From: a bacterium
Lineage (GTDB): Bacteria; Patescibacteriota; Saccharimonadia; Saccharimonadales; UBA4665
Direction of reading: 5' to 3'
DNA: 55,142 bases
Assembly (NCBI GenBank): GCA_021850865.1
Contig: JAJZKN010000002.1
Span: forward strand, 47,588 to 102,729
In this document: piece by piece, positions 1,379-6,861 of the stretch
Numbering within the stretch: the stretch's first letter is position 1
How the letters are laid out: each line of letters starts with the position of its first letter
Made by a program: the position numbers and the translations under genes
Notes under the pieces: model-generated
The model's database searches: none
Seen by the model: only the letters and a program-made list of their open reading frames with translations
Told to the model about the DNA's origin: nothing

Positions 1379-2008
1379 ATGAACAGGTTAATTAGTAAAA
1401 ATAAGTTCGGATTCATAGCGGGTATTTTGACGCTGGTAATGGTTAGCGGCTCAACCGTTTTGGCGTTACCGAGCGGGGCTAACGCGCACGCCCAGGGCGT
1501 AGCGGCGGGCAATACTACGGCCACGGTCACCACCGGAAATGGCCACGGTAACGGACAGAGCCAGCTGACCGGCGGAAAACTTAAGGCTTGTCAAAACCGA
1601 CAAGTTGCCATCAAAAATATTATGACCAGAATTGATACCAGAGCCCAAAACCAACTGAACCTGTTTAACACTATCGCTACAAGAGTAGAGAGCTTTTATG
1701 TTAAGAAAGGTAAGACACTCAGCAACTATGACCAGTTAGTCGCTGCTGTTCAATCAGCCTCAGTTCAGACGTCCACAGATTTCGGGACTCTAAAATCGAA
1801 CAGCACATTCACCTGCAGCATAGGAAGCCCTAAAGGAATGGTTACCGTATTCCAAGGTTATCTGAAAACCGAGATCTCCGATCTTAAAAATCTTCGGACT
1901 GCCGTTAAGAATCTGATAGTCGGTGTCGCCTCAGCCAATGGCGTAACCATATCAAATTCGGCGCAGTCGGGATCAACCGGTAGCCAAACAACGAGAGGAA
2001 CTAATTAA
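1379..2008 (+). CDS. secreted protein, 209 aa
   Basis: The N-terminus has a basic start, a hydrophobic core (residues 10-30) and an Ala-rich region with an ANA-H type cleavage zone near residue 36, so a Sec signal peptide is likely. The mature part has a Gly/Asn/His linker (50-62), then an amphipathic helical region (68-125) and two cysteines (C71 and one near C145) that could pair. The end is Ser/Thr/Gly-rich. An AGAGAGGAAAC ribosome site lies about 5 nt before the ATG. The next gene, a pilin-like protein, starts 1 nt after the stop, so the two are co-transcribed and may act together at the surface. No family is recognised. Confidence 0.7.
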   Translation: MNRLISKNKFGFIAGILTLVMVSGSTVLALPSGANAHAQGVAAGNTTATVTTGNGHGNGQSQLTGGKLKACQNRQVAIKNIMTRIDTRAQNQLNLFNTIATRVESFYVKKGKTLSNYDQLVAAVQSASVQTSTDFGTLKSNSTFTCSIGSPKGMVTVFQGYLKTEISDLKNLRTAVKNLIVGVASANGVTISNSAQSGSTGSQTTRGTN

Positions 2009-2009
2009 G

Positions 2010-2321
2010 ATGAAAAAGCAATATCAAGAAGGTTTTTCGGCCGTCGAAGCAGTACTAACGGTCGTTATTGTTGCCGCGCTGGTGATTGTCGGATTTTACG
2101 TCTGGCACAACAATAGTAGCAAGAACAGCACCTCTTCGGGCAGTACAGCTTTAGCGCAACCGTCATCTACCTATCAATCTCCTGCGACTACAACAATGAA
2201 TGCGCCGCAAATTACAACCACGGCCAGCTTAAACACAGCTATGCAGGCACTTAATCAGGCAGGTATATCGTCTAATAGTACCGATAGCAACCAGCTAAGC
2301 ACTTACTCCTCGGGTTTTTAG
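2010..2321 (+). CDS. type IV pilin-like protein, 103 aa
   Basis: Residues 7-27 match a class III prepilin N-terminus. A short basic leader precedes GFSAVEAVLTVV, with the cleavage-site Gly-Phe and Glu at +5 of the mature protein, followed by an uninterrupted hydrophobic helix. The remaining 70 residues are Ser/Thr/Asn/Gln-rich with no cysteine pair, so this would be a minor or pseudo-pilin at most. It is translationally coupled to the upstream secreted protein (1 nt gap). A prepilin peptidase (PilD) would be needed for processing and is not in the window. The alternative is a simple single-pass membrane protein. Confidence 0.6.
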   Translation: MKKQYQEGFSAVEAVLTVVIVAALVIVGFYVWHNNSSKNSTSSGSTALAQPSSTYQSPATTTMNAPQITTTASLNTAMQALNQAGISSNSTDSNQLSTYSSGF

Positions 2322-2421
2322 GGCAACATTCAAGCTTCAGTTATTTGTCTCGAATTCAAAGTTGAGCGGATATAGTTATATGGCAATGGATAAGGTATAC
2401 TAATTGAGATATAGCCTAATT

Positions 2422-2497
2422 GGCGCTTTAGCTCAGTTGGTAGAGCAGAGGCCTGAAGAGCCTTGTGTCCCCAGTTCGAGTCTGGGAGGCGCCACCA
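2422..2497 (+). tRNA. tRNA-Phe (GAA)
   Basis: A complete cloverleaf is seen. The 7-bp acceptor stem pairs GGCGCTT with AGGCGCC, the anticodon stem pairs GAGGC with GCCTT, and the loop CTGAAGA gives anticodon GAA. The T arm carries GTTCGAG. Discriminator A and CCA (2495-2497) are encoded. A sigma-factor start codon follows 3 nt downstream. Confidence 0.95.
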
Positions 2498-2500
2498 TTA

Positions 2501-3160
2501 ATGGAAATAACTTTTGCCAACCCCGAAATTAATAAACAGTCGGCTAACGAGAGTAGGCCCGACCCGGCAACGACGGCCGCGCTTCGGTTTCAGGATATTT
2601 GTCAGTTGCATCCGGAAGACAGGCAGAGCTTGGACTTGGCATTTGCCGACATGGTCAACTTAACTTACCCGATGCTCTATAACGAGCTGGTAAGACGTGG
2701 TGCTAACGAGGACGACGCCCAGGAAGTTCTTCAGATCACTTATTTAAAAACCCTCAATTCTTTGGCTGAGGGTAAATTTGAGGGCAGGTCAAAGGTAAGT
2801 ACCTGGCTTTTTAGGGGTATGCTTAATAATTTCTATGATCTTCGGACTAGTCAGGCAAAACGGGGTAATCGCGAAATATCTAATGATATGTTTGAGAATC
2901 ACGAAATCCCAGACAGCACGGATGTCGAAGGAATGGTCATTGATAAGCTAGAAACAAAGCAGCTAGCCGACAAAATAGTACAACTCTTCGACGAACTTGG
3001 TATTAGTAGTAGAGATCAAAAAGTTGTATTTCTGAGAAGCAGAGGTATGCACTATACAGAAATCGCTGCCATTCTTGGCATTTCTTCCGCATTGGCCGCT
3101 AAAGTTATCGTTCACCGTGTGCGCACTAAGGTCCGGACCGAACTAAGCTCTTCGAGCTAA
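2501..3160 (+). CDS. ECF-like sigma-70 family RNA polymerase sigma factor
   Basis: This 219-residue protein has a sigma region 2 at about residues 50-120, with a DDAQEVLQITYLK segment followed by STWLFRGMLNNFYD, typical of region 2.2-2.4. A region 4 helix-turn-helix sits at about 160-215 (YTEIAAILGISSALAAKVIVHRV). It should direct RNA polymerase to a regulon of its own; no anti-sigma gene is adjacent. The frame is open further upstream into tRNA-Phe, but the first sensible start is ATG 2501, only 3 nt after the encoded CCA of the tRNA. There is no room for a leader or ribosome site, so the mRNA would be made by read-through and 3' processing of the tRNA and would be nearly leaderless. A downstream start near 2651 would remove part of region 2. 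Confidence 0.85.
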   Translation: MEITFANPEINKQSANESRPDPATTAALRFQDICQLHPEDRQSLDLAFADMVNLTYPMLYNELVRRGANEDDAQEVLQITYLKTLNSLAEGKFEGRSKVSTWLFRGMLNNFYDLRTSQAKRGNREISNDMFENHEIPDSTDVEGMVIDKLETKQLADKIVQLFDELGISSRDQKVVFLRSRGMHYTEIAAILGISSALAAKVIVHRVRTKVRTELSSSS

Positions 3161-3175
3161 GGGCTAAAGCCAAGA

Positions 3176-3248
3176 CGACTCGTTTCTGAAAACAGAAGCT
3201 TAAGGAGTCGCGGCGCAATGAATAAGTGCAAGCGGTTTTACTCATTGC
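3176..3248 (+). other. two inverted repeats after the sigma gene
   Basis: CGACTC (3176-3181) pairs with GAGTCG (3205-3210), with an inner TTCTG/CAGAA stem (3184-3197). A second, imperfect dyad has CAATGAATAA (3216-3225) facing TTACTCATTG (3239-3248). Neither is followed by a T run. They could end or process the sigma transcript before tRNA-Gly, but this is only a structural observation. Confidence 0.3.
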
Positions 3249-3274
3249 CTACTTTTGATAGAATAGACAACGAT

Positions 3275-3351
3275 GCGGGTGTAGCTCAGTTGTTTAGAGC
3301 GCGTCCTTGCCAAGGACGAGGCCATGGGTTAGAGTCCCATTACCCGCACCA
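3275..3351 (+). tRNA. tRNA-Gly (GCC)
   Basis: The acceptor stem pairs GCGGGTG with TACCCGC, the anticodon stem pairs CGTCC with GGACG, and the loop TTGCCAA gives GCC. Discriminator A and CCA are encoded (3349-3351), followed by a second CCA-like triplet. It marks the left border of the AT-rich accessory region. Confidence 0.95.
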
Positions 3352-3458
3352 CCAGATCGGATATTGGGGTCAAGTTTGATCTTGTTTTTATTTTTGCTTC
3401 GGCTCACTCCCTCAGTAGGCCGTTAGAATCTTATAAGCGTTTAATAATATCAAGCTAT

Positions 3459-3486
3459 TTGACTCAACTAGACAAAATTGTATAAT
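3459..3486 (+). promoter_or_regulatory. promoter of brnTA
   Basis: TTGACT (3459-3464) and a perfect TATAAT (3481-3486) are separated by 16 nt. Transcription should start near 3493, leaving about 5 nt before ATG 3498. The TTG at 3486 overlaps the -10 box and so cannot be the start codon. Confidence 0.75.
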
Positions 3487-3497
3487 TGAGTATATAC

Positions 3498-3797
3498 ATG
3501 AAGGTCAATTCTAAAGTATTGCAGTTTGAATGGGACTCGGGAAATTCTAATAAGAATAAACTTAAGCATGCTGTAGAGGACTGGGAATGTGAAGAGGTGC
3601 TCTTTGATAGTAAGAAAGTAATGTTTAAGGATAAGCTCCATTCTTATAATGAGCAAAGGTTCATTTTGCTGGGTAAAACCAGGCAGGAACGACTACTTTA
3701 CATAGTTTTCACTACCAGAAACGAGAAAATTAGAGTTATATCGGCAAGAGATATAACTAAAAGAAAGGAGATTGAACTGTATGAAAAAGCAAGTTAA
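3498..3797 (+). CDS. brnT: BrnT family ribonuclease toxin
   Basis: This 99-residue protein has the BrnT (DUF497) layout: an FEWD segment near residue 10, KNKLKH near 20, a central EERF-like stretch (NEQRFILLGKT), and the C-terminal R-N-x-K-I-R-V-I-S-A-R block with a final KRKEIELYE. BrnT toxins are RelE-fold mRNA-cleaving enzymes neutralised by BrnA. The start at ATG 3498 is set by the promoter just upstream and gives an almost leaderless mRNA. The reading frame overlaps the antitoxin gene by 17 nt, the usual toxin-first BrnTA order. No lesion is seen, so this copy should be active, unlike the broken copy at 7099-7392. Confidence 0.85.
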   Translation: MKVNSKVLQFEWDSGNSNKNKLKHAVEDWECEEVLFDSKKVMFKDKLHSYNEQRFILLGKTRQERLLYIVFTTRNEKIRVISARDITKRKEIELYEKAS

Positions 3798-4047
3798 TGT
3801 TCCAAAGTTTAAGAATGAAGAGGAAGAGCGAAAGTTTTGGGCCGAATTGGATCTCTCTGAGCATTTTGAGCCTAGTGACTTCGAGGCTGTTAGTTTCCCT
3901 AACTTAAAGCCTACTACCAGACCAATATCTATAAGAATTCCAGTCTCGGTATTAAATCGTGTCAAAGAGCGTGCTAACGAAACCAACGTTCCTTACCAAT
4001 CCCTTATTAAGGAATATATACGTGAGGGTGTTAGTGCTCATCGCTAG
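3781..4047 (+). CDS. brnA: BrnA family antitoxin
   Basis: This 88-residue protein has a charged N-terminal half (toxin-binding) and a C-terminal ribbon-helix-helix at about 45-80 (ISIRIPVSVLNRVKERANE, then YQSLIKEYIREGV). It should bind BrnT and repress its own operon. AAAGGAG (3763-3769) lies about 11 nt before ATG 3781, which is preferred to the in-frame TTG at 3772. The gene starts inside the end of brnT, so the two are translationally coupled. Confidence 0.85.
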   Translation: MKKQVNVPKFKNEEEERKFWAELDLSEHFEPSDFEAVSFPNLKPTTRPISIRIPVSVLNRVKERANETNVPYQSLIKEYIREGVSAHR

Positions 4048-4100
4048 TAATAGTTAATTAACTTTAAACTTTAACTACTTGCTCTATACTAACAAAGCAT

Positions 4101-4193
4101 TCTCTAATACACTTCTGGCCATACTTATTTCTCTAGATATATTTACAATCGATCTGTAAGATTTCATTCGGAATATGCCTAATAAGGGGCATC
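4101..4193 (+). repeat. island repeat A, copy 1
   Basis: This copy shares a long right half with copy 2, including TTAGATATATTTAC-like and TTTCATTCGGAATATGCC blocks and ending AATAAGGGGCATC. The left CCGAAAAATACCCC block is diverged here. It lies between brnTA and the YdcF-like gene. No open frame crosses it. Confidence 0.8.
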
Positions 4194-4293
4194 AATCTAT
4201 ATAATCGGCCTTGTTTTGGGCACGATTATTGTAAAATACATAATATAATGCTGTAATATACATTAATATTTTAATTTATTATTTTAAAGATTT

Positions 4294-4887
4294 ATGCCAA
4301 ATCCAGTAGAAATAGTCCATTCAGTATTAGATATTCCACAAGAGGTTACAGCCATTATTGCTTTAGGTAAGCAATACGGCGTTGACTCAATCCATAAAGA
4401 TATTTTAGCGAGTCCTGACCATCTTAGTGAAGATAGTCGGATAACGGTTATGGGTGTAGGCTTCACTTGTATGAATGCAATGGAAAGAGGGCAGGAGCTA
4501 AGAGTTCTATTTACTGGTAATAAAAAAGCTTTGTTTCCGGGTTCTGCTGTAGAGTTTATGTCTAAACAGTTCCCTAAAGTTCCAGAAAATTGGTACGATA
4601 ATCCAGACGAAGGCTCAGTAACTACCATGGACTCAGCCTTAAGAGTGCCAGCTATATTACTAAGCGAGGGGCATTCAAGTGCAGTGCTCGAAACAGTTAG
4701 CTTTCATGCAAAGCGTAGTCGTAGACAATTCACTACAACAGCGAGCAAATTAATTAAGTGCGTTGCAGCTACTGACTCATTAGTCGCTGAACAGTCTGAA
4801 GTAGGCGAAAAATTTATTGAAACCTGGTCAAATAGCAGTAGGGTTAAAAAAAGAACGAATAAAAGAAAAAATAGCTTTTGTAGTTGA
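4294..4887 (+). CDS. YdcF/ElyC-like (DUF218) protein with C-terminal frameshift
   Basis: The order of motifs resembles the DUF218 fold: a hydrophobic strand near 20-26, a VMGVG strand followed by a helix, LRVLFTGN (the family's SG strand), EFM, then EGSVTTMDSA (E..S..T pattern) and VSFHAKRSRRQF (family: TS..H..RA). It is cytosolic here, with no membrane helix. The last 15 codons look unnatural. Shifting by +1 at the GGGTTAAAAAAA tract (4841-4852) instead gives a plausible 33-residue tail ending at TAA 4940-4942. One extra base in this tract, or a programmed shift, would explain it. No toxin partner is adjacent, and repeats A and B flank it. Substrate unknown. Confidence 0.55.
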   Translation: MPNPVEIVHSVLDIPQEVTAIIALGKQYGVDSIHKDILASPDHLSEDSRITVMGVGFTCMNAMERGQELRVLFTGNKKALFPGSAVEFMSKQFPKVPENWYDNPDEGSVTTMDSALRVPAILLSEGHSSAVLETVSFHAKRSRRQFTTTASKLIKCVAATDSLVAEQSEVGEKFIETWSNSSRVKKRTNKRKNSFCS

Positions 4888-5009
4888 AGCAGGTATTATA
4901 GGTTCACTAGGAAGAAAAGCCGTAAAAGCTTACCGCCCTTAACTTTTAAAGCAGGTCAGGGGATAAACTAAATAACTCAACCAAGTTCTTTAGTTTATTA
5001 TCGTTAGTG

Positions 5010-5092
5010 GCATCTATGGAGCATGTTTGAAATACGTCAACTATGCTGCACCAAATCTTAATTTTTGATTATTTTAAGAATATCTTTAGAGA
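5010..5092 (+). repeat. island repeat B, copy 1
   Basis: This stretch aligns with 6904-6985 over about 80 nt (shared blocks ATGTTTG, CGTCA, CTGCACCA and an A/T-rich part ending TTTAGAGA), and a looser match continues to GAGTCTT near 5160. It fills part of the roughly 320-nt gene-free stretch between the YdcF-like gene and vapB, in which I see no gene. Confidence 0.65.
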
Positions 5093-5205
5093 CGACAGCT
5101 AGTCGACCTTGTGATAAATTCAGTTTTGTCAAAAAAATTACCTGTTATTTTGATAGAGTCTTATTTGCTCACTCGTACTGTTCTAACAGATAGTAGTCCA
5201 TCAAG

Positions 5206-5260
5206 GTATTACTAAATAATAACGTAATACATTGACATAAAGTATTACGCTCGATATAAT
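5206..5260 (+). promoter_or_regulatory. vapB promoter with three alternating 7-bp half-sites
   Basis: A consensus promoter has TTGACA (5232-5237), a 17-nt spacer and TATAAT (5255-5260). ATG 5267 lies exactly 6 nt after the -10 box, so the message should be leaderless. GTATTAC (5206-5212), GTAATAC (5224-5230) and GTATTAC (5242-5248) alternate in orientation with a strict 18-bp period and straddle the -35 box. They are good candidates for an autorepression operator of the AbrB-type antitoxin. Confidence 0.75.
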
Positions 5261-5266
5261 ACTAAC

Positions 5267-5554
5267 ATGACGTTTTATTCAACTGTTACGTCAAAGGGTC
5301 AAATAACTTTGCCGGCTAGTATCCGTGAGAAAATGAATTTAAAAGCTGGCCAGAAAGTTAGTATTACTCAAGATGATAACGGAAAAGTCAATATTCAAGT
5401 ACCGCCATCAATTGACGATATACGAGCTCAATTGCAAGTCAACTTACAAAAAAAAGGTTTTACACCGGCTAAGTTACGAAAAATTGCAGAAGAGTATAAA
5501 GGTGGTGATGGCTTCGCTAACTATGTTGAGGAAAAGTATAGTGCAAACCGCTAG
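5267..5554 (+). CDS. vapB: AbrB/MazE-fold antitoxin (VapB)
   Basis: Residues 5-50 form a SpoVT-AbrB swapped-hairpin DNA-binding domain (TVTSKGQITLPASIREKM, then GQKVSI). The C-terminal 45 residues are charged and would bind the toxin. It should neutralise the PIN toxin encoded next and repress the operon through the half-sites at 5206-5248. The start follows from the promoter spacing. The gene overlaps vapC by 14 nt. Confidence 0.85.
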   Translation: MTFYSTVTSKGQITLPASIREKMNLKAGQKVSITQDDNGKVNIQVPPSIDDIRAQLQVNLQKKGFTPAKLRKIAEEYKGGDGFANYVEEKYSANR

Positions 5555-5939
5555 TCTTGACGCCTGTTGTATCTTGCGTTGGTTGTTGCAGGATATTCCT
5601 GAGCAAGCACGAGCTGTGCATGGTCTGTTAAGCAACCCTGGCAGTTATTACATAGCCGACACGACACTTATGGAGGTAGTTTATGTACTCGAGAGAATTT
5701 ATAAGCAAGAAAGATATTTTATTGCTTCCTGTCTTAACCTGATTAGTTCATTGAATCAAATTAAATGCAGCAGACAACTTATTAAGTTGGTAACTCCTAT
5801 TTATGCGGAAAATCCAGCATTATCTTTTGCTGACTGTTGGGCTGCAGTATGCGCCGAACTAAATAAGGCTCAACCCCTACTGACTTTTGATAAAAAATTG
5901 GCTTCAAAATTACCCCAGGCTGAACTTTTGGCAGCATAA
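5541..5939 (+). CDS. vapC: PIN-domain ribonuclease toxin (VapC)
   Basis: With the GTG at 5541 as start the protein has 132 residues, a usual VapC length, and opens directly into the first PIN strand with its acidic residue (SLDACCILRW). The other expected acids are present: E in LMEVVYVLE, D in SFADCWAAVC and D in LTFDKKLA. PIN toxins use these for metal-dependent RNA cleavage. GAGGAAAAG (5528-5536) is placed as a ribosome site for the GTG; an in-frame ATG at 5523 is the alternative. The start lies inside the end of vapB, so translation is coupled. Confidence 0.85.
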   Translation: MQTASLDACCILRWLLQDIPEQARAVHGLLSNPGSYYIADTTLMEVVYVLERIYKQERYFIASCLNLISSLNQIKCSRQLIKLVTPIYAENPALSFADCWAAVCAELNKAQPLLTFDKKLASKLPQAELLAA

Positions 5940-5972
5940 AGCTTTAGTTAGGCGCATCAAACAGACTATTGC

Positions 5973-6077
5973 CCGAAAAATACCCCCCTAACATAATTCT
6001 CGCTAAACCTATTTCTTTAGATATATTTACAATTGATCTATAAGATTTCATTCGGAATATGCCTAAATAGGGGCACC
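5973..6077 (+). repeat. island repeat A, copy 2 (most complete)
   Basis: The full form is about 105 nt. Left block CCGAAAAATACCCC is followed by TAACATA, the middle has CCTATTTCTTTAGATATA and TTGATCTATAA, and the right block is TTTCATTCGGAATATGCC then AAATAGGGGCACC. The ends are imperfectly complementary (CCCC...CATA facing TATG...GGGG) and an inner TAGAT/ATCTA pair exists, so the element can fold. It lies between vapBC and the phd-PIN pair. Confidence 0.85.
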
Positions 6078-6168
6078 AATTCAACTCAAACGATTTTCAA
6101 ACAGTATAGTTTCTAACATTTGAGCTTTTCGAGGCTCTTTTAATGTAATCCATATGGTTTAACTGCTG

Positions 6169-6197
6169 TTGACATAGTCCACATAGTCCAGTAGACT
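6169..6197 (+). promoter_or_regulatory. promoter and possible operator of phd-PIN
   Basis: TTGACA (6169-6174), a 17-nt spacer and TAGACT (6192-6197) lie 6 nt before ATG 6204, again predicting a leaderless message. The spacer contains two tandem CATAGTCCA copies and the dyad TAGTC-N5-GACTA over the -10 box, a likely antitoxin binding site. Confidence 0.65.
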
Positions 6198-6203
6198 AAT
6201 AGT

Positions 6204-6449
6204 ATGAACGTAGTTAATGTCCACGAAGCTAAAACTAATTTCTCTAAACTACTGGAACGCGCAGCTAATGGTGAGCGTATTGTCATCGGCAAGGCCGGCA
6301 AGCCAGTTGCACGGCTAGAGCCCTTTTCGGGGACCAAAGCCGTACACAAGCAATTTAAAGGCGGTGGTTTTCGGCTGCAAGAAAAGCTAGGTCGCCCACT
6401 CACGCCAGAGTATATAAACGAGCTTGCCGCCAGTAAATACGATGACTGA
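6204..6449 (+). CDS. Phd/YefM family antitoxin
   Basis: The 81-residue protein starts with the classic Phd fold (VNVHEAKTNFSKLLERAANGE, then VIGKAGKPVARLEP). The C-terminal 35 residues are flexible and basic-to-acidic, as in Phd partners of PIN toxins. It should bind the operator at 6169-6197 and the PIN toxin. The start codon is fixed by the promoter 6 nt upstream. It overlaps the toxin gene by 8 nt. Confidence 0.88.
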   Translation: MNVVNVHEAKTNFSKLLERAANGERIVIGKAGKPVARLEPFSGTKAVHKQFKGGGFRLQEKLGRPLTPEYINELAASKYDD

Positions 6450-6861
6450 ATCGCCGGTTTTCTTAGACGCTAATGCTATCCTATATGCGTTTGACGAAAC
6501 AGGCCCGCACTTTGTAGAAACTGTTGCTGCAATACAGCGCTTACAACATGCTGATATCATACTCTGCACATCACATCATGTTATTGAAGAAGTGGTGCAT
6601 GTGATGCGTAAAGCGGGCGTTGCTGCTACTGAAACCGTACAAACGGTAGCCACTTTACCTAATCTGGTCTTGATTGAGCCAGATACGGTCTTGGCATTTG
6701 CTGAACGTTACGCAAAGTTGAGCGATGACCTACATATGGGCGTGAACGATGCACTTCTTTTGCAATTGTTGCTTGATGCTGGGATTACAAAGCTTTTGAG
6801 TTTCGATAAACGATTTGTCGAACGAGCTGCCGAACTAGGCATCAAGCAAGTGGCTAGATAA
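6442..6861 (+). CDS. PIN-domain toxin paired with Phd antitoxin
   Basis: This is a 139-residue PIN protein with D in VFLDANAILYAF, E in VIEEVVHVM, D in MGVNDALLLQLL and D in LSFDKRFVERA, the four acids of the metal site. It should cleave RNA when free of antitoxin. ATG 6442 sits in ATGACTGA, overlapping the antitoxin stop; the in-frame GTG/ATG-like codons further upstream are less likely. Codon use is slightly less AT-rich than in the neighbouring cassettes. Confidence 0.85.
   Translation: MTESPVFLDANAILYAFDETGPHFVETVAAIQRLQHADIILCTSHHVIEEVVHVMRKAGVAATETVQTVATLPNLVLIEPDTVLAFAERYAKLSDDLHMGVNDALLLQLLLDAGITKLLSFDKRFVERAAELGIKQVAR

Follow-up and report, generated by a model that had tools for sequence, protein, structure and literature searches.

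The stretch of DNA analysed here (hereafter the window, 55,142 nucleotides of a Saccharimonadales genome of the UBA4665 lineage) carries a tRNA-Phe(GAA) gene and a gene for a sigma factor that almost touch each other (Table 1). A P-type ATPase encoded nearby places the genome in Candidatus Saccharibacteria: its three top matches among named genomes share 86-89% identity with it and come from two Saccharibacteria bins and one further bin. The tRNA gene encodes its own CCA (2495-2497, preceded by ...GGCGCC A), and the first-pass annotation was exact in stating that TTA alone parts this CCA from the ATG of the next gene. The encoded protein matches TIGR02937 with 61 bits (cut-off 42.9), spanning 2-165 of 165, and Sigma70_r2 (PF04542) with 28.1 bits (gathering score 24), while sigma region 4 (PF08281) is recognisable at 17.1 bits, under its gathering score of 25.7. 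By TIGR02937 together with Pfam region 2, the product is classed as an ECF-type sigma factor. Genes for ECF sigma factors usually, though not universally, sit beside the gene of a cognate anti-sigma factor. No anti-sigma gene is adjacent here, the flanking features being tRNA-Phe and tRNA-Gly, and this absence is not disqualifying because many ECF groups lack such a neighbour.

Table 1. Features at and around the junction of tRNA-Phe and the sigma factor gene (positions in the window)
Feature	Position	Strand	Basis
Two pilin-like genes upstream of tRNA-Phe	1379..2321	+	appearance; no Pfam family
Probable -10 box TATACT of the tRNA-Phe promoter	2396..2401	+	one mismatch to TATAAT
tRNA-Phe(GAA) with encoded CCA	2422-2497	+	ARAGORN; genus matches
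GGGAGG, Shine-Dalgarno-like, in the T-stem/acceptor 3' strand of the tRNA	2484..2489	+	sequence, fold
TTA, sole bases between CCA and start codon	2498..2500	+	sequence
Predicted ECF-type sigma factor gene, 219 aa	2501..3160	+	ORF, profile matches, homologue alignment
Spacer after the sigma gene	3161..3252	+	not homologous to G018; stem-loops without T run
Putative tRNA-Gly promoter TTTACT-16-TAGAAT	3237..3264	+	scan; alignment of relatives
tRNA-Gly(GCC), original downstream neighbour of tRNA-Phe	3275..3351	+	ARAGORN, relatives' contexts

Is the ATG next to the tRNA really used as the start? The nearest homologue in the same genus (G001, L003), sited elsewhere in its genome and with GGGAG shortly 5' of its start, aligns with the sigma protein from residue 3 (ITFANPE / ITFVNPE), while codons translated inside the tRNA, 5' of ATG 2501, do not align with it; ATG 2501 is therefore supported as the true start. 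By the same alignment a start inside the tRNA (GTG 2465) was rejected, and so was ATG 2651, since homology reaches upstream to residue 3. A conserved downstream start, which the first-pass annotation had raised as possible counter-evidence, is thus not borne out.

How easily can such a tight join appear by chance? Among the 19 genomes of the genus, there are 71 places where an ATG lies 0-6 nt after an encoded tRNA CCA, and in 68 of them the ATG opens a frame of 32 codons or fewer. Long frames are opened at the remaining three: the sigma gene, 3 nt after tRNA-Phe, a frame of at least 301 aa 2 nt after tRNA-His in G016 (L111), and a frame of 208 aa 6 nt after tRNA-Pro in G013 (L132). The start of the sigma gene is more than a chance ATG, and tight joins between a tRNA and a protein gene arise occasionally in the genus as independent cases, with different tRNAs and unrelated genes. 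In the genome to which the window belongs, all 23 tRNAs found end in CCA, and only tRNA-Phe is followed within 13 nt by a same-strand ATG frame of at least 60 codons; tRNA-Cys has a 62-codon frame at 14 nt, which overlaps the next tRNA-Leu.

Then, from where is the sigma gene transcribed? The GATAnnnTATACTnATT context of the TATACT box upstream of tRNA-Phe is common to another genome with a tRNA-Phe locus of like layout (G018, L297). No convincing -35 element was found for this promoter, and the two-hexamer scan also missed the box. Between 2402 and 2500 there is no TAnnnT with one mismatch or fewer to TATAAT, the only TAnnnT having three, so that the body of the tRNA holds no -10-like site for the separate promoter that the first-pass annotation had named as an alternative. 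A terminator between tRNA-Phe and the ATG is impossible because the spacer is 3 nt. Neither promoter nor terminator was thus found between the two genes, as expected of a dicistronic unit. Since no -10-like hexamer lies between TATACT and the ATG and a terminator has no room, we infer, as was first proposed, that read-through from the tRNA promoter would be the likeliest and simplest source of the sigma message. Downstream of the sigma stop codon, too, no intrinsic (T-run) terminator was found before tRNA-Gly, and therefore the transcript may run into tRNA-Gly. The latter seems to have a promoter of its own, whose TGnTAGAATA box is kept in six aligned sequences, with one base changed in one of them.

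The surroundings of tRNA-Phe tell how the sigma gene may have come to this place. Among 12 same-genus matches, ten have an identical tRNA-Phe sequence and two differ by one base. In the 12 other genus contexts, tRNA-Ala(GGC) lies within 20 nt before tRNA-Phe in ten, and tRNA-Gly(GCC) lies 23-52 nt after it in eight; here, tRNA-Ala(GGC) is found about 3.8 kb upstream on the same strand (C9:46090) and tRNA-Gly 777 nt downstream. The layout of G018 is likewise spread, with 3.1 kb between tRNA-Ala and tRNA-Phe and 1,277 nt between tRNA-Phe and tRNA-Gly, and its Phe-Gly gap holds a gene on the opposite strand (L018 1576-2760) that by its look is laminarinase-like. This gene occupies the slot that the sigma gene has here, and only 2 nt part its stop codon from the CCA of tRNA-Phe. 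When the window is compared with G018 by blastn, 2419-2497 (100%) and 3253-3352 (93%) match and nothing between them does. Of the 78 tRNA-Phe contexts in the family, 43 have tRNA-Gly downstream, no more than 100 nt away in 28 of them and at a greater distance in 15. Because the window and G018 hold unrelated cargo and 15 family contexts have a distant tRNA-Gly, the Phe-Gly gap is a recurrent place for cargo. A gene pair like the two pilin-like genes also precedes tRNA-Phe in G018, with 52% identity in the first gene; a functional link between this pair and the sigma factor was rejected, as G018 (73% complete) has the pair without a sigma gene there.

Such a junction is not kept by relatives. 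After six partial tRNA-Phe matches were dropped and 6 of the 78 contexts with 151 or fewer bases downstream were set aside, 72 informative contexts were left, and a same-strand frame of at least 80 codons starting within 25 nt after tRNA-Phe occurs in the window only; the next nearest same-strand frame starts at 27 nt (L207). Close members of the sigma family (E below 1e-80, all five being included in the query alignment) occur in 5 of the 93 family genomes (G000, G001, G004, G025 and G072), a patchy distribution, and the loci examined for the other four homologues contain no tRNA. The own assembly of 571,302 bases is 68% complete and many relatives are also incomplete, by which statements of absence are limited. 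The conservation of the junction, proposed at first as a check, is therefore seen in one context of 72, and the idea that sigma output is tied to tRNA transcription and processing as a regulatory device finds no support in it or in the tRNA-free homologues. The junction looks like a lineage-specific insertion of a gene rather than a conserved regulatory device. As to the vehicle, a reading as an att site was rejected, since a search of the window for the final 28 bases of tRNA-Phe, with up to 3 mismatches allowed, gave a single copy and hence no direct repeat there. A viral or plasmid origin was rejected as well, no relative being present among viral_contigs or plasmids, and no relative of the sigma protein was found among the named genomes scanned.

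It might be possible that the sigma gene has a promoter invisible to the consensus scan, for example an ECF promoter of its own, located either within the tRNA or before it, or that the gene is silent cargo. The scan covers sigma-70-type sites only, and the patchiness of the gene in the family is like that of accessory cargo. However, a hidden promoter giving a leaderless or short-leader start must sit in the tRNA itself, where the sequence is fixed throughout the genus, and silent cargo does not sit well with regions 2 and 4 being conserved enough for family matches; we regard this explanation as unlikely.

If the message is transcribed as a tail of tRNA-Phe, its 5'-terminus depends on how the 3' end of the tRNA is made. 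RNase Z (TIGR02651) is over its curated cut-off in none of the 19 genus genomes and gives weak matches in six, the one in the own genome being a protein of 676 codons that by length and look is RNase J-like. A control search found the RNase Z family in 14 of 14 known genomes, over the cut-off in only nine, and so a diverged RNase Z may exist in the genus. The CCA-adding enzyme family (PF01743) is present in 2 of the 19 genomes and RNase R/II in 1, no separate RNase PH was found in the 19, and PNPase is present in 16 including the own genome, with both domains in one frame. The processing cut assumed by the first-pass annotation is hence not supported by the genome content, no RNase Z passing the cut-off in any of the 19. 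tRNA-Phe may be matured by an exonuclease, and plain 3'-trimming would then consume the sigma message. An endonuclease that cuts at the CCA or behind it would save the message, and a cut more than 3 nt after the CCA would damage the start codon.

From this dependence one can imagine a switch, in which the sigma message is destroyed by exonucleolytic maturation but released when maturation is slow or an endonuclease cuts, and sigma output thereby reports on tRNA-Phe processing. The enzyme repertoire just described, with PNPase in 16 genomes, RNase R/II absent from 18 and RNase Z over the cut-off in none, would suit this idea, and so would a junction with no spacer to hold a terminator or an early 3' end. 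Against it, the junction is unique among the 72 informative contexts, no sigma homologue keeps it, and the own genome is of the limited completeness given above; we think a switch quite unlikely. To its fullest form, in which the sigma mRNA is bounded by the 3' end of tRNA-Phe and by RNase P at tRNA-Gly and the choice between endonuclease and PNPase sets the output in a cell with no recognisable RNase Z, we would give very little chance.

Can a message with such a short leader be translated? In 86 genes of at least 150 codons, taken from the window and from the stretches of G001 and G018, a -10-like box lies 4-11 nt before the ATG in 16 (mean 5.88 and maximum 11 in 68 control windows, which overlap mutually), and a Shine-Dalgarno-like motif lies at the same distance in 13 (control mean 2.37, maximum 6); none of the 16 genes with a close -10 box also has the motif. 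In the window alone the leaderless signal is weaker, with 9 of 47 genes. This pattern seems to be what is expected of a lineage with leaderless genes beside Shine-Dalgarno genes, and because of it, leaderless translation of a sigma message with a 3-nt leader is plausible. The message of about 3 nt leader envisaged in the first-pass annotation thus holds as far as its translation goes, but the cut that would produce it is unsupported. Judged by titles and abstracts, no literature on leaderless genes in Saccharibacteria or Patescibacteria was found.

The GGGAGG within the tRNA, 11 nt before the ATG, leaves room for another route, in which Shine-Dalgarno-dependent translation may start on an unprocessed transcript: the sigma factor would be made from the uncut tRNA-sigma RNA in a fraction of which the tRNA part is misfolded. 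When the tRNA is folded together with leader and ORF start, the predicted minimum-energy structure is not the full cloverleaf. In both predicted folds that contain it, however, GGGAGG is mostly paired, as it would be in the folded tRNA. The motif is fixed by the tRNA sequence, which relatives lacking the sigma gene share, and is therefore better taken as incidental than as selected for sigma translation; translation from the uncut transcript appears very unlikely.

Each part of the proposed route has a parallel in known systems. The leader of the tufB message contains a ribosome-binding site of its own. In the outline given in PMC6134099, the thrU-tyrU-glyT-thrT-tufB operon of Salmonella and E. 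coli is driven by a tRNA promoter through tRNA genes and then a protein gene. The sigma gene likewise stands behind a tRNA, on a joint transcript that we infer, but unlike tufB it has 3 nt between CCA and ATG. Messages of human mitochondria have almost no leader. They are bounded by tRNAs and freed by tRNA processing, the tRNA punctuation summarised in PMC5203842. The sigma gene also lies between tRNAs; unlike in mitochondria, this concerns one gene and not a genome-wide layout, and RNase P and the tRNase Z ELAC2 do the cutting in mitochondria, while in this genus no genome has an RNase Z over the cut-off. Leaders shorter than 10 nt are common in actinobacteria, at least by the accounts for Streptomyces, Propionibacterium and Mycobacterium in PMC4681348, PMC3848588 and PMC4633059, though such leaderless mRNAs start at a promoter, while here tRNA processing would create the 5' end. 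For CCA-encoding tRNAs of P. acnes and S. coelicolor, two of these accounts describe an endonuclease whose cuts fall either a few nt beyond the tRNA or between the two Cs of its CCA (PMC4681348, PMC3848588). With a cut of this type the leader here would be about 0-5 nt long; in contrast to the present genus, with PF01743 in only two genomes, these two species have a CCA-adding enzyme. The locus would then work like a tRNA-mRNA operon that has hardly any spacer.

Weighing these points, we find it rather probable that the sigma gene is an accessory insertion expressed by read-through from around 2396 and by a cut at the CCA that makes its message leaderless, without any conserved circuit. An accessory ECF-type sigma gene would have entered a tRNA-Ala/Phe/Gly cluster that was once tandem, landing in its Phe-Gly gap right behind the CCA. 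Having no promoter of its own, it would be transcribed as the tail of tRNA-Phe, and an endonuclease would cut at or just after the CCA to leave a leaderless or near-leaderless mRNA starting UUAAUG, which may end at the RNase P cut before tRNA-Gly. The tight join would be a product of insertion and genome compaction, with no sign of retention as a conserved regulatory circuit. Against this explanation stand the lack of an RNase Z over the cut-off in all 19 genomes and the four sigma homologues away from tRNAs, which leave a functional value of the tRNA link unsupported. As it stands, the locus neatly illustrates how a tRNA cluster can hold accessory cargo, a compact insertion whose expression route, as read from sequence alone, would be of interest. 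If the message is truly cut from a tRNA transcript, compact Saccharibacteria could express genes without promoter or leader of their own, and it would have to be asked how their tRNA 3' ends are completed when no RNase Z can be recognised.

Some other features around tRNA genes may be mentioned. Directly after tRNA-Gly (3486-6861 of the window), there are several small genes that by appearance are toxin-antitoxin-like, among them BrnT at 3498-3797 (by Pfam). Just before the start of the window, a run of N (L063 4079-4088) joins two copies of a tandem repeat, and the repeat-rich minus-strand gene there may be misassembled. In G000 (C7 15707-19475), three tRNA-like 3' ends, each followed by CCAGATCATG, lie within 4 kb, and this context of a tRNA-like 3' end and CCAGATCATG recurs in other genomes of the genus.
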